From contig NZ_UGHK01000002.1 in assembly GCF_900450705.1 (NCBI RefSeq), positions 434,001-498,000 of the forward strand: 64,000 bases of DNA, in the 5' to 3' direction. Both the position numbers and the translations under genes were made by a program. This DNA comes from Avibacterium paragallinarum (lineage in GTDB: Bacteria > Pseudomonadota > Gammaproteobacteria > Enterobacterales > Pasteurellaceae). The notes below the pieces were generated by a model. The model searched no databases. It had not been told where the DNA came from and saw only the letters and a list, made by a program, of their open reading frames with translations. This document shows positions 3,014 to 11,334 of the stretch, piece by piece (the first letter of the stretch is position 1; every line of letters begins with the position of its first letter).

Positions 3014-3523
3014 ATGACTAAATATACTCAACGTTTCAAACAACAAGTGCTCGACTTTTATCATCAAAATGGAAAAAACCGTTCGCTTACTCGCCAGTAT
3101 TTTCAGCTTCCCCAAAGCACGTTAGCACGTTGGATTGCGAAATTTAATCATAATGGAATCAATGGATTAGCTGTGTTAGGTAAAAAACGATGTTATTCTG
3201 TTGAGTTTAAATTAAAGGTTATTCAAGCTATCAAAAAAGGCCAGTGCTCCGCTGAAGCCGCCTGCTTTCACTTTGATATCCCCAGTTCAGGGATAATTAG
3301 TCAATGGTTGCAACGCTTTGAAAAACAAGGTATAGATGGGTTATTACTCAAACCTAAAGGTCGTCCAAGTATGAAACTCAACTCACCTAAAATGCCACCA
3401 ACGCCCAAAACAGAAGAAGAACGCTTGCGTTACCGAATTTTGGAATTAGAAGCGGAGAATGCAATGCTAAAAAAGTTGCAGGAACTCAACCAACAAAAAA
3501 TGCAGAAAAAGCCGTCATCGTAA
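3014..3523 (+). CDS. IS3-family transposase OrfA
   Basis: OrfA (169 aa) is the DNA-binding half of the transposase. It carries two helix-turn-helix segments (about residues 8-45 and 63-105) and a C-terminal leucine-zipper-like coiled coil (about 133-160). A canonical -1 slippery heptamer, A AAA AAG, lies at 3469-3475 in the correct phase, so an OrfAB fusion is expected by programmed frameshifting. Confidence 0.92.
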
Positions 3524-3546
3524 ATGCCTTACGCTCGCGTTTCCCG

Positions 3547-4353
3547 TTGGAATTGTTACTCAGGCTAATCGGATTGGCACGCAGTTCGTTCTTTTATCAT
3601 CTCAAGCCAAAGTCGGATAAAAATGTAGCGATTTCACAGAAAATAGAGGAAATTTATCGCAAAAATGACGAAAATTATGGTTATCGTCGAATTACCTTGG
3701 AATTAAGGAAATACTTGATTATCAACCACAAAAGGGGGCAAGCGATAATGCAACGTTTGGGGTTAAAAGGAAAAAGTAAGCAGAAAAAATATCGTTCTTA
3801 CCAAGGCAAAGTGGGACACATTGCCGATAATCTGTTGCAACGGGATTTTACGGCAACGATGCCGAATGAGAAGTGGGTAACGGATATCACCGAGTTCAAA
3901 TGTGCGGAAGGCAAAGTGTATTTATCGCCGATTAAAGACTTGTTTAATAACGAAATTATTGCTTATGATGTGGCGAGAAGTCCGAATTTTGAGCAGATAA
4001 CCAGAATGTTGACCCAGGCGGTGAACCGATTAGCGGGGGAAAAACCGATACTGCATTCCGACCAAGGGTGGCAGTATCAAATGATGGGTTATCGGGAGAT
4101 ATTGAAAAAACACGGTATTAAGCAAAGTATGTCGAGAAAAGGCAATTGCCTTGATAATGGTGCGATGGAAAGCTTTTTCGGGCGATTGAAGACGGAATGT
4201 TACTTTGGCAAGCGGTTTGAAACCTTTGAACAGCTTGAAAAAGTGATTCACGAGTACATTCATTACTACAACAATGAGCGTATTCAAGTGAAGCTCAAAG
4301 GACTAAGCCCTGTGGAATACAGAACTCAGTCCTTGAATGAAATTAGAATATAG
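3547..4353 (+). CDS. IS3-family transposase OrfB (DDE integrase)
   Basis: OrfB carries the rve-type DDE catalytic core. Visible are an N-terminal HTH_21-like segment ([13 protein letters not shown]), the first Asp in WVTDITEFK, the second in [10 protein letters not shown], and the final Glu in [13 protein letters not shown]. The listed start is a TTG; the frame is open upstream to the OrfA slippery site at 3475, so the functional product is probably the OrfAB fusion. Confidence 0.93.
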
Positions 4354-4485: not shown

Positions 4486-5541
4486 TTATTGATTACGGCT
4501 GGCAAGCATTGCCGCACGACCTGTTAATTTTTCACCTTTTTGCCCATCTTGGGTAAAGGTTTGTGTTACTTGGCTACGTTGCGAACCTAACGCGTCTTGG
4601 CGAGATTTTGCTTCAGCCATCGCCATATCAAAAGCCGCTTCAATATAGGCATCAGATTTTTGCGATAAATCCGCTCCATCTTGACGAATAGCCCCAATCA
4701 CCGCTTCGCGTAAAGCACGATCTGAGCTATCCGCTTTCACGTCGACCTTATGGGCTTTTGCAATACCTTCTAACTCAACGCGGGCTTTGGCGATATTCAC
4801 CGCATCTTGTTTGATCTTTTCCATCTCCATTTCAAGGCTTTTTACTTTCGCTTCTAACGCATCTGCCCGAGCGGTTTCTTTATCCTTTTCAGCAACCGCA
4901 TTAGCGGCATCTTGTTTCAATTTATTAAATTCAACAATCACCTCAGGGGCGGCTTGATAAGTAATGCCGCTATCTAGGCGAATATCTGAAAGTTTTGTTT
5001 CACTCATTTGAGGTTCTCCATCTTCACGAAATTCTACGGCATCTGCCGCGTCCATATTGAGCTTTGCATCACCTGCACGCCCACGTTTTACGATAGCTAA
5101 ATGATTCGGCTTAATATTGCGTTGAATCGCATCATAAGGCTCGCCGTCCTCAGTAATGCCACTTTTATGCTCAAGCTCTACCGCATAGCCTACCGATAAT
5201 TCTTTTTTGCCAAAATCCACGGCTTGGGTATTATGGATCACCACCTCCGCCGTTAAATGTTTGCCATCTTGCTTGCCCTCAGATAACACAGACCCCACCA
5301 CCAGATGGGCGTTATCTTTTGTAATCACCCCGTGATGATCATCTGTGATCGGAATGCCTTTATATAGCCTTAAACTATCAGCATTAAAGACTTCCTCAGG
5401 CGGGCGATATTCTCGCCGTACCGTGCCATCAGGCAACTGATAAAGAAAAACCCCAGTCCTTGTTAGAACTGGGGTATCAAAAATAAACCCGTTATCATCT
5501 CGCCTTGCTTGTATCGCACGGCGATCGTATCGCATTACCAC
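4486..5541 (-). CDS. DUF2213 phage protein (putative prohead protease/scaffold)
   Basis: The 351 aa protein has an N-terminal DUF2213-like region (about residues 4-175, with ITDDHHGVIT and NHLAIVKRGRAG) and a long charged coiled-coil segment (about 205-270). DUF2213 proteins occupy the capsid maturation protease/scaffold position in tailed-phage head modules. Start: GTG at 5541, two bases after the stop of the preceding HD gene and 8 bp from a GGAGG; an ATG at 5535 is the alternative. It lies in the same minus-strand operon as terminase, portal and MuF. Confidence 0.8.
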   Translation of the reverse strand: MVMRYDRRAIQARRDDNGFIFDTPVLTRTGVFLYQLPDGTVRREYRPPEEVFNADSLRLYKGIPITDDHHGVITKDNAHLVVGSVLSEGKQDGKHLTAEVVIHNTQAVDFGKKELSVGYAVELEHKSGITEDGEPYDAIQRNIKPNHLAIVKRGRAGDAKLNMDAADAVEFREDGEPQMSETKLSDIRLDSGITYQAAPEVIVEFNKLKQDAANAVAEKDKETARADALEAKVKSLEMEMEKIKQDAVNIAKARVELEGIAKAHKVDVKADSSDRALREAVIGAIRQDGADLSQKSDAYIEAAFDMAMAEAKSRQDALGSQRSQVTQTFTQDGQKGEKLTGRAAMLASRNQ

Positions 5542-5543
5542 GG

Positions 5544-5969
5544 TTAGTCCTCCGCTAATAAAAAATCCATTGCCATTAAATATTTATTTCGCCTCGCTAT
5601 ATCTTTTTCCGTAATTTGCACTAATCTCGTTAAATCAGCATTATGTGTTAAGTCAGCAATCTTAACCCATCTTGCAATCGGACTTTGTTTAACACGGCAT
5701 AAATAATCCTGATAATTTTCACCAGATCGTTTAGAAATAGCCTCCACGGCATCGGAAATAACTTGTCCAAATTCAGAAGCAATATGATTAAGTGTTATAG
5801 ACGTATCTTCTACGCTATCGTGTAGCCAAGCTACTGCTATCATTTCATCAGTTGGATTATGTAGATTATTTACAACCGCTTGCAAATGCCCTACATAAGG
5901 CTTTCCCGCTTTATCTACCTGATCACGGTGCAAAGCCCTTGCTAACTGTTCTGCTTTTTTGGCTAGCAT
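5544..5969 (-). CDS. Small HD-domain hydrolase, RelA/SpoT-hydrolase-like
   Basis: This 141 aa protein has the order typical of stand-alone (p)ppGpp hydrolases of the SpoT/MESH1 type: HRDQVDKAGKPYVGHL near residues 14-29, the metal-binding HD plus ED in WLHDSVEDT (about 48-56), and KIADLTHNAD (about 103-112). No synthetase or TGS domain is present. It sits between the MuF-PRTase reading frame and the DUF2213 gene, with its stop 2 bp before the next start. Its DNA is visibly richer in A+T than terminase and portal. It could be an alarmone hydrolase, another nucleotide hydrolase, or an immunity factor for the preceding PRTase-like domain; the last is inference. Confidence 0.8.
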   Translation of the reverse strand: MLAKKAEQLARALHRDQVDKAGKPYVGHLQAVVNNLHNPTDEMIAVAWLHDSVEDTSITLNHIASEFGQVISDAVEAISKRSGENYQDYLCRVKQSPIARWVKIADLTHNADLTRLVQITEKDIARRNKYLMAMDFLLAED

Positions 5970-5984
5970 TTAATGATCCTTAAT

Positions 5985-6019
5985 AGAACCCCTGAAAATT
6001 TATGCGTTTCAGGGGTTCT
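5985..6019 (-). promoter_or_regulatory. Perfect 13-bp-arm hairpin ahead of the HD gene
   Basis: AGAACCCCTGAAA and TTTCAGGGGTTCT form a perfect stem with a 9-base loop between the MuF frame and the HD start. The hairpin ends 15 bp before the HD ATG, and AAGGAT follows it as ribosome binding site. A strong U-run is lacking, so it may be an attenuator, a processing site or a weak terminator. Confidence 0.6.
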
Positions 6020-6070
6020 TTATGAAAACTAAATTAACTCATTGCCATCATTTCATAGTAAGCATTTCGT

Positions 6071-6187
6071 TTACTTTCTTGCAAGGATCGTATTTCGGAC
6101 TTCGTCAGGTGTTTTACGTGAGTTGAGTATGAATCTTGCTTCCCATTCCGTGAGCTTTGAGAAGTCATAGCCGAACTCTTGAATCCA
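6071..6187 (-). pseudogene. C-terminal tail of the MuF-PRTase frame after a second TAG
   Basis: In the same frame as the PRTase segment, right after the TAG at 6188-6190, 38 further codons run to a TAA at 6071-6073. They begin WIQEFGYDFSKL and contain TEWEARFILN. There is no start codon or ribosome binding site of its own, so this reads as the natural C-terminus of the upstream protein cut off by an amber mutation (TGG to TAG would be one base). Read through both TAG codons, the protein would be about 532 aa. Confidence 0.6.
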
Positions 6188-6907
6188 CTAGTTTTCAATT
6201 TCTCCATACTTACTCCTTAATTCTAATAATGTATCTCTTGACAGTCTCAATTGTACTGAATATTGTTTCCCAGTTAAAGCATAAGAACCTAAAACTTTCC
6301 CATTATTTGTTTCAATGTACCCTTTTAGGCTCGCTAATGTCCCACCCTGAGTTTGAGTATCATCTAATATAATGGCTAACTTTTGGGGGACATCGCCACT
6401 AAATTTAGGTGTATAGATTAATCTATGCCAACCATCACTACCAGTACGAGAAACTTTTGTGGACTGCACAATAGACAAATCAACAGGCACATTCAATCTT
6501 TTTCCAATAACTGTTGCAACAGCAATTGGAATCATATTTCTACCCGCACTCTCTTCCGCGTGAACCGGCACTAAAATAACATCTTTACCCTGTATCATTT
6601 TTTCCAGTTTAGAAATGGCATCGTCAGAAACAAGATCCTTAGCGAGATTATACGCCTCTCCCACACAGCCAGACTTTGCCCTTTCATATAGAGGGTGTGA
6701 GGTTGCCTCACCTAATTTTCTGTCAATTATTGTATCTGGGAAATCATCATCCCATTCACTACGCATACTAATTTTACTTTTTGCGGTTAGGGGTGTTCGA
6801 ATTATAGCATTTTTAACGGACTTTTCTTCATTATTAAGATTAGTTGCTGCAACAGCAGCTGTCGCAACAACATTACCTTGACTAACCAACTCCTCAAACT
6901 CCGGCAA
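6188..6907 (-). CDS. Phosphoribosyltransferase-like domain, C-terminal part of MuF protein
   Basis: About 239 codons encode a type I phosphoribosyltransferase-like fold. The central motif IILDDTQTQGGT matches the PRPP-binding loop pattern (hydrophobic strand, two acidic residues, Gly-rich T loop), with VPVHAEESAGRN as a preceding strand-loop. The segment is in phase with the MuF frame (6941-7669), separated only by a TAG and 11 codons that include LCRC, a typical MuF ending. It is therefore the C-terminal domain of a MuF protein rather than an independent gene; the TTG at 6907 has no ribosome binding site. MuF proteins with variable C-terminal enzymatic domains are known as phage polymorphic toxins; toxicity here is inferred. 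Confidence 0.65.
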   Translation of the reverse strand: MPEFEELVSQGNVVATAAVAATNLNNEEKSVKNAIIRTPLTAKSKISMRSEWDDDFPDTIIDRKLGEATSHPLYERAKSGCVGEAYNLAKDLVSDDAISKLEKMIQGKDVILVPVHAEESAGRNMIPIAVATVIGKRLNVPVDLSIVQSTKVSRTGSDGWHRLIYTPKFSGDVPQKLAIILDDTQTQGGTLASLKGYIETNNGKVLGSYALTGKQYSVQLRLSRDTLLELRSKYGEIEN

Positions 6908-6940
6908 TACCGCCTCCGCACTACAACGGCATAAAATCGG

Positions 6941-7669
6941 CTACCTAGGGTGTCCGTCATCAGGGGGATTGTCCCAGCGAAATTCCTTTCCCTCTCGTTC
7001 AATGTGTGATAAACGTTCCCGTTCATCTAAACTGCCACGCCAGATATAGGATTTTACGCCGATATTTTCTTGACGTAATTGGGTGAGTCGTCCGTTGAGC
7101 TTGCCGATTTGATCGCGTGCAATTAACGTTGCACGGCGTTTAGGAATATCAAGGAGCTTTTCTAAATCCGCCGCAAGGCTTTTATAGCTTTCGCCTTTGC
7201 GTAGTGCTTCAACCATTCGATAACGTAGTTTTTCGTGTAACTGCTGCGGTACCGTTTTAATTAAACTAATATTCTGCCATTCAGCGAGCTTTAACGCCTC
7301 ATCAAGCCAAGGCTCTGATACAAAAATATCCACTTTGTACGCAGATTTTAGCACTTTGTGAAATTGTTTCTTGTTAAACTCTGCCGTTTGCGACAGGAAT
7401 TGTCGCACAGCAGGGCGAATGTCATTATCACGGGTGTAAAAGGTGGTTGCCTGTAACAATTCGGTTAGCCATTGCTCTAAAATCTCAATGCTGTCATCTT
7501 GGCGTAGCATTCTCTTTAAGTGCGGTGCAATTTCAGGCAGTTTTTTTCTTGCTGTATCACTAATTTGCTTGGCGATAGCTTGCAAATACTTCACATACTC
7601 CCGCTCAATCGCCTCAGGAAACAGCCACCGTTTTTGCTTTTTGGGCTTTTTGATAGTCGTTAATGTCAT
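6941..7669 (-). CDS. Phage head morphogenesis protein, MuF/SPP1 gp7 family (stop-interrupted)
   Basis: These 242 codons match the MuF/gp7 minor head protein domain: an N-terminal helical region, then the signature ARDQIGKLNGRLTQLRQ, YIWRGSLDERER and FRWDNPPDDGHP. The family motif continues with a CRC cysteine pair, which is present in frame (PILCRC) just after the TAG at 6941-6943. CAG to TAG is the simplest explanation. The start at 7669 overlaps the portal gene by 56 bp. MuF proteins are few-copy capsid-interior proteins near the portal. Confidence 0.82.
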   Translation of the reverse strand: MTLTTIKKPKKQKRWLFPEAIEREYVKYLQAIAKQISDTARKKLPEIAPHLKRMLRQDDSIEILEQWLTELLQATTFYTRDNDIRPAVRQFLSQTAEFNKKQFHKVLKSAYKVDIFVSEPWLDEALKLAEWQNISLIKTVPQQLHEKLRYRMVEALRKGESYKSLAADLEKLLDIPKRRATLIARDQIGKLNGRLTQLRQENIGVKSYIWRGSLDERERLSHIEREGKEFRWDNPPDDGHPR

Positions 7670-10615: not shown

Positions 10616-11334
10616 GGGGCTGTCCTAGATAACTAGACTAAACTCCCTTTAACCAATTGTTTTAAAATAGAAATTTGACTTTTTATGTTGCTGTAATTAA
10701 AACGCCATTCACATTCCTTTAAATAAAGCTCAAAATGCGCTTTTGGGATACCATTAAATTTGCGTAAATGGCGTTTTGCTTGGCTCCAAAAATTCTCAAT
10801 TCCGTTAATGTGGTTATGATTTTCAGCAAAATGTGTGCTGTGATTGATACGAAAATGACTAAATTCACTCACATCAAGCACGTCATAACTACGATAATTA
10901 TCGGTGTAAACAATACTATCAGGCTTTACCTGCTCCCGAATAATGGGTAACAAGGTGGCAGATTGCGTATTTGGAACCGCAACGGTATAAACCTTGCCAT
11001 TGCACTTGAGAAGCCCGAATACCGCAATTTTCCCTGCCGCACCACGACCACGTTTGCCTTTGCGAGCACCGCCAAAATAACTTTCATCGGCTTCAATTTC
11101 ACCTTCAAACATCTCTAAGTGAAGGCTGTTTTGATAGATGAGTTGGCGTAAACGATGAAAGTAATATGCGGCAGTCGTTTTGTTTACATTGACTAACTCT
11201 GCTGCTGTCCTTGCAGTAACACCTGCAACAAATAGCTCAATGAGTTTATTTTGTTTGTGCTGACTTAGACGACTTTTTCTCATTGGTTCATTCTAACCTA
11301 AATAGATTTTTTAGTTGTTATCTAGGACAGCCCC
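10616..11334 (-). mobile_element. IS1016-like (IS1595 family) element, copy A
   Basis: This 719 bp element is bounded by inverted repeats GGGGCTGTCCTAGATAAC. Its transposase is on the minus strand. The 8 bp to the left (TAATTTTT) and right (TAATGATA) do not match, unlike the perfect duplication around copy C. The element lies at the junction between oppositely oriented phage blocks, so it probably marks a recombination or deletion endpoint rather than a simple insertion. Confidence 0.92.
10633..11283 (-). CDS. IS1016-like transposase (ISXO2-type DDE), copy A
   Basis: This 216 aa transposase has an N-terminal helix-turn-helix (about residues 5-40) and an ISXO2-like DDE domain with GEIEADESYFGGARKGKRGR, VYTDNYRSYD and HNHINGIENFWSQAKRHLR. 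It is nearly identical to the other two copies; one visible difference is Cys after LLK, where copies B and C have His and Arg. Confidence 0.93.
   Translation of the reverse strand: MRKSRLSQHKQNKLIELFVAGVTARTAAELVNVNKTTAAYYFHRLRQLIYQNSLHLEMFEGEIEADESYFGGARKGKRGRGAAGKIAVFGLLKCNGKVYTVAVPNTQSATLLPIIREQVKPDSIVYTDNYRSYDVLDVSEFSHFRINHSTHFAENHNHINGIENFWSQAKRHLRKFNGIPKAHFELYLKECEWRFNYSNIKSQISILKQLVKGSLV

Follow-up and report, generated by a model that had tools for sequence, protein, structure and literature searches.

An Aph1-family hydrolase gene behind a MuF-PRTase gene in an Avibacterium paragallinarum prophage is very probably an orphan immunity gene left by toxin-tip exchange

As described by Paulet et al. 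(2025, PMC12226406), the Apk2 module combines MuF-Apk2tox, which makes (p)ppApp, with IapK, which blocks the toxin, and Aph1, which hydrolyses (p)ppApp; when tested in E. coli, Aph1 encoded by prophages of M. haemolytica and P. multocida counteracted Apk2tox, and did so across species. MuF proteins that instead carry a ComF-like PRTase as C-terminal domain were recorded in Proteobacteria prophages by Iyer et al. (2017, PMC5512222), whose passages on these fusions present them as possible injected effectors and report no HD partner there. Regarding the fate of immunity genes, the tip and immunity gene of Serratia Rhs toxins are exchanged by recombination, and the old immunity gene is kept downstream, where it has been shown to protect against rivals (PMC10539506). 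Besides these systems, XccSAH is a promiscuous small hydrolase of the Mesh1-L subgroup that cleaves several alarmones and has no toxic synthetase partner (PMC9765508).

The gene aph1 considered here lies in a prophage within a 64,000-nucleotide stretch of the Avibacterium paragallinarum genome, referred to as the window. Its product resembles Aph1, the adenosine 3'-pyrophosphohydrolase of Apk2 modules (PMC12226406; 7smg), in length, HD motifs, fold and MuF locus; however, the window locus lacks Apk2tox and IapK, and aph1 stands behind a MuF-PRTase gene with only the last iapK codons before it. This MuF-PRTase has the architecture of the published fusions, but the gene is broken. The likeness to Serratia lies in an immunity gene kept downstream of an exchanged tip, although the Serratia toxins are type VI Rhs proteins while that of the window is a phage head protein, and protection by Aph1, which degrades the toxin product, should be broad, unlike that of Serratia Rhs immunity (PMC10539506). 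XccSAH shares with the window Aph1 the lack of a toxic synthetase partner but, unlike it, is not found in a toxin-immunity slot (PMC9765508). The features of the locus are as follows.

6071 to 7669, minus strand: MuF-PRTase gene, broken by TAG codons at 6941-6943 and 6188-6190; an intact copy is present in L030.
6034 to 6207, minus strand: conserved +1-frame overlapping ORF at the PRTase 3' end, 57 aa, with AAGGAG just before its ATG; candidate small partner of the PRTase.
5985 to 6019, minus strand: hairpin, remnant of the terminator behind MuF-PRTase, its T tract replaced by the scar (comparison with L031).
5970 to 5984, minus strand: scar matching the iapK 3' end, attaaggatcattaa, with the last codons I-K-D-H-stop (13 of 14 consensus positions); holds the likely aph1 ribosome-binding site.
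5544 to 5969, minus strand: aph1, intact, 141 aa; Aph1-family small alarmone hydrolase, predicted (p)ppApp 3'-pyrophosphohydrolase.
5541 to 5986, minus strand: 446-bp block (scar plus aph1), absent from an otherwise collinear Gallibacterium salpingitidis prophage (comparison with L031).
4486 to 5541, minus strand: head-maturation protease (DUF2213), the next phage gene, from profile matches.

The aph1 frame runs from ATG to stop uninterrupted, and its product carries all the SpoT/MESH1-type HD landmarks (H28, H50-D51, E54-D55 and D106), residues that are invariant in two alignments and that show the metal and catalytic positions of a RelA/SpoT-type HD domain to be conserved. Together with matches to Pfam HD_4 (1.5e-8), phrog_990 'metal-dependent phosphohydrolase' (1.4e-49) and NCBIfam spoT_relA (9e-14), this bears out the initial annotation, which had described a 141-aa HD protein with SpoT/MESH1-like motifs in AT-rich DNA; the GC content of the region is 0.37-0.39, against 0.43-0.46 in its flanks. 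Its emphasis on ppGpp, in turn, has to be given up, as the best solved sequence match is 7smg, the (p)ppApp hydrolase of Bacteroides caccae (E 1.3e-27), and the family mostly stands behind the (p)ppApp synthetase Apk2tox. The structure was predicted from alignments with rows of the window and related loci only, phage-record rows being left out; the model (pLDDT 96.3) fits 7smg with a Z of 23.1 and an rmsd of 1.1 over 137 residues, followed by PaSAH (19.1), MESH1 (17.6) and SpoT (15.7). The protein is closest to a solved (p)ppApp hydrolase in both sequence and fold, and a ppGpp-specific hydrolase is therefore not favoured. Its nearest phage relatives, at 57-61% identity, belong to Aggregatibacter phage S1249 and to Pasteurella and Mannheimia phages, and these are HD genes adjoining MuF-Apk2tox. 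From sequence, predicted fold and gene context, the window HD protein is Aph1, the (p)ppApp hydrolase of the Apk2-IapK-Aph1 module, with its activity predicted. Between the window and L030, the aph1 copies differ by no synonymous and one nonsynonymous change, so few differences that they say little about selection.

The prophage around this intact gene is decaying. Both halves of the MuF-PRTase gene are spanned by phrog_324, with phrog_22413 covering the PRTase part, and the model of the C-terminal domain (pLDDT 83) has ComF as its top fold match, followed by other PRTases. The gene is one open frame from end to end in the L030 relative and, because that copy is open at 96.5% DNA identity, the window gene is a recent pseudogene; amber readthrough or recoding of the two TAGs is improbable, as sense codons occupy both places in the closest relative. 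About 100 nt separate MuF-PRTase from aph1 and contain a 13-bp hairpin (z of -5.8 for the 76 nt around it), while scans for promoter and terminator consensus around aph1 performed no better than shuffles. The initial annotation was thus right in placing the HD gene behind MuF, although it does not follow directly and the MuF frame is interrupted; likewise, the capsid genes said to resume after it hardly do so, as one head-maturation protease gene is followed by an IS element (3014-4353) and host secDF (76-2905). This IS element and a second one at 10633-11283 interrupt the prophage to either side of the head gene cluster.

Concerning the neighbours of Aph1, the HD protein, the PRTase and three MuF backbones served as queries to collect loci, which were scored by profile HMMs and dereplicated at 95% DNA identity, giving 24 Aph1 groups and 19 PRTase groups. 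Apk2tox and IapK stand directly upstream of Aph1 in 19 of the 24 Aph1 groups, another toxin/immunity pair (here named Tox2/Imm2, Imm2 being DUF7675) in two, and the PRTase in one, that of the window lineage only; two further groups are chromosomal, outside prophages. In S1249, 1152AP2 and Pmp13 the HD gene comes after a MuF gene and then a small gene of some 72 codons, and these arrangements are Apk2/IapK/Aph1 modules of the kind studied in PMC12226406. The view that a small alarmone hydrolase of immunity type occupies the immunity position of a phage polymorphic toxin is upheld. That HD genes might occur regardless of the MuF C-terminal domain agrees with the data in part, since at least three kinds of domain have Aph1 behind them, but Apk2tox dominates; an HD gene beside any MuF is rejected, as no Aph1 was found within 4.5 kb at MuF loci with an unclassified or missing C-terminal domain (some of which have less flank). 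Apart from these phage loci, three chromosomal loci of one genus (L308-L310, genus g36) hold an Aph1-like hydrolase beside a CorC-like gene outside any prophage, with the frame split in one genome.

In the window itself, the domain encoded directly upstream of aph1 is a PRTase and not Apk2tox, and only the last codons of iapK remain in between. On both sides of the locus, a prophage of Gallibacterium salpingitidis (L031/L101) aligns collinearly with the window, at 80.6-82.3% DNA identity, but it lacks window positions 5541-5986, so that L031, the closest MuF-PRTase relative, is without exactly the 446-bp block. In L031, MuF-PRTase ends in a canonical terminator that includes a T tract; in the window the terminator stem is kept, but attaaggatcattaa has taken the place of the T tract and leads into the aph1 ATG. 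The 15 bases correspond to the iapK end that precedes aph1 in intact modules (e.g., L046, L022 and L004). Scored against a 14-base consensus of the iapK end, the window reaches 13, while none of 814 other gene starts, taken from the window and related loci as the null, reaches 11. The same kind of scar (11/14) is seen in L073 and L091, where Tox2/Imm2 precede Aph1. Part of this conservation may be functional, because the scar also contains the ribosome-binding site.

Intermediate states of such an exchange are also observed. In L056 the order is MuF-Tox2/Imm2/Apk2tox/IapK/Aph1, with Tox2/Imm2 placed ahead of a surviving Apk2 module; L046 has the same order plus a displaced PRTase remnant downstream of Aph1; and in L091 and L073 it is reduced to MuF-Tox2/Imm2/Aph1. 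Moreover, a single MuF backbone, 98% identical over about 263 aa, carries the PRTase in L037 and Tox2 in L046 and L091. In the tree, whose bootstrap is not fully settled, the window Aph1 groups with the Apk2-linked L055/L019 (92/94), and the orphan Aph1 of L091 with the Apk2-linked L069 (94/93). Three different prophage contexts, each with its own MuF backbone, retain an orphan Aph1. Regarding the cognate toxin, no Apk2tox was found in the genome of the window by a query that does find its source genome (G026), and a full Apk2 module is present in one of seven genomes of the genus (L022). The window aph1 has the marks of an orphan immunity gene, downstream of an exchanged tip and with the cognate toxin absent.

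The reading that best accounts for these observations, and that is very probably correct, is that aph1 is an orphan, product-degrading immunity gene left by toxin-tip exchange and not the partner of its present PRTase neighbour. The gene would have entered the head-gene slot of the phage within a MuF-Apk2tox/IapK/Aph1 module; recombination may then have put a PRTase tip, together with the terminator of that tip, in place of the toxin tip, or may have brought Aph1 in behind a PRTase tip, which would leave aph1 and the last iapK codons as the only residue. Its product is predicted to strip the 3'-pyrophosphate from (p)ppApp, returning ADP or ATP. Because its target is the product that the toxin makes, and not the toxin itself, Aph1 need not be matched to any one toxin (PMC12226406) and could protect against all those that make (p)ppApp, which would explain its retention. 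As no Apk2tox was found in this genome, while one of the seven genomes of the genus has the full module, the rivals against which the orphan could shield the lysogen would be other phages or bacteria with (p)ppApp-making toxins, by analogy with the orphan Rhs immunity protein of Serratia. Both the enzyme family and the kind of situation, an orphan immunity gene after tip exchange, are known; the present locus adds an example from a phage MuF toxin.

For the window copy, a passive relic is a serious if less probable alternative, given how far the prophage has decayed and that a hairpin lies ahead of aph1: the origin would be the same, and aph1 would now be an inert remainder in a decaying prophage. 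The two stop codons in MuF-PRTase and the IS elements on both sides agree with it, and the hairpin may cut aph1 transcription; on the other hand, the aph1 frame and all its catalytic landmarks are intact, and orphans are retained in three prophage contexts. This alternative is compatible with orphan immunity as to origin and differs only on present use, which is uncertain, as is expression, because the prophage is decaying and cut by IS elements.

The initial annotation had taken the HD protein and the PRTase domain for a cognate pair, the latter making or altering a nucleotide that the former destroys. The two do adjoin in two near-identical alleles (the window and L030), and ppGpp-binding proteins of PRTase fold are among the fold matches (PurR, 7rmw; XPRT, 6w1i), so that a nucleotide link is conceivable. 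Yet Aph1 lies directly downstream of the PRTase in only one of the 19 PRTase groups, that of the window (one other group, L047, has only 212 nt of downstream flank, too short to judge), MuF-PRTase occurs without HD in G. salpingitidis, Haemophilus and other Pasteurellaceae, and PRTase loci without HD are found in Moraxella and Acinetobacter; in addition, the hairpin separates the two genes. The pair is not conserved, the outcome that the annotation itself had named as contrary to its proposal, and these counts speak against pairing, as do the vacant site in the nearest relative and the remnant of iapK before aph1. A nucleotide-based partnership is accordingly very improbable, and there is no support for regarding PRTase and HD protein as a new toxin-immunity system.

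A likelier candidate for the PRTase partner is the putative product of the overlapping ORF at 6034-6207. An ORF of this kind, in the +1 frame, occurs in 76 of 86 PRTase loci (L031, L032, L037, L107, L105, L008, L119 and L121 among them, besides the window); it opens within the 3' end of the PRTase gene and extends 26-101 nt beyond the PRTase stop codon. The loci span Pasteurellaceae as well as Acinetobacter, Moraxella and two distant genomes, and the conserved core of the ORF resembles LTxSEIxSLR. Within the overlap, synonymous change is reduced in several of five pairs (combined p of about 3e-4), a moderate signal because one of the five is poorly aligned upstream. In L126, L143 and L073 this tail forms the in-frame C-terminus of an immunity-like protein, and a family-model search with the ORF product gave no convincing match.

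That the phage uses the enzyme to lower host (p)ppGpp in infection or lysogeny, unrelated to toxins, can hardly be maintained, for although the SpoT-like motifs and the partnerless XccSAH (PMC9765508) would allow it, the (p)ppApp hydrolase 7smg is clearly closer than SpoT and MESH1, and Aph1 family members in these phages stand behind (p)ppApp toxins.

Other MuF genes show further variety. Related backbones bear an ADP-ribosyltransferase (L241) or a PBECR3 nuclease (L209) as tip, and the window's own backbone carries in L126 (3530-4416) and L143 (5720-6559) another C-terminal domain, lacking a convincing Pfam match and followed by a helical immunity-like protein. Intein-like insertions occur at a conserved MuF-domain cysteine in L003 (2504-4777, Aggregatibacter phage S1249) and in another prophage, L091 (1877-4753), with Pfam Intein_splicing scores of about 1e-6, below the curated cut-off. 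Behind the MuF genes of L046, L056 and L073, displaced toxin/immunity cassettes and PRTase remnants form Rhs-like arrays.

Under the preferred reading of orphan immunity, what appeared to be a new toxin-immunity pair clearly illustrates how an immunity gene is retained when a phage structural toxin has exchanged its tip, with the serial cassette arrays in these three loci representing exchange caught in intermediate states. Tentatively, MuF loci might be Rhs/CDI-like tip cassettes, in which tips are stacked and exchanged, Aph1 persists as an all-round defence against (p)ppApp toxins, and the overlapping ORF, not the HD gene, is the true PRTase partner. If retained Aph1 does protect lysogens, the resistance that prophages confer against a class of phage and type VI toxins would be broad and would act at the level of the product.
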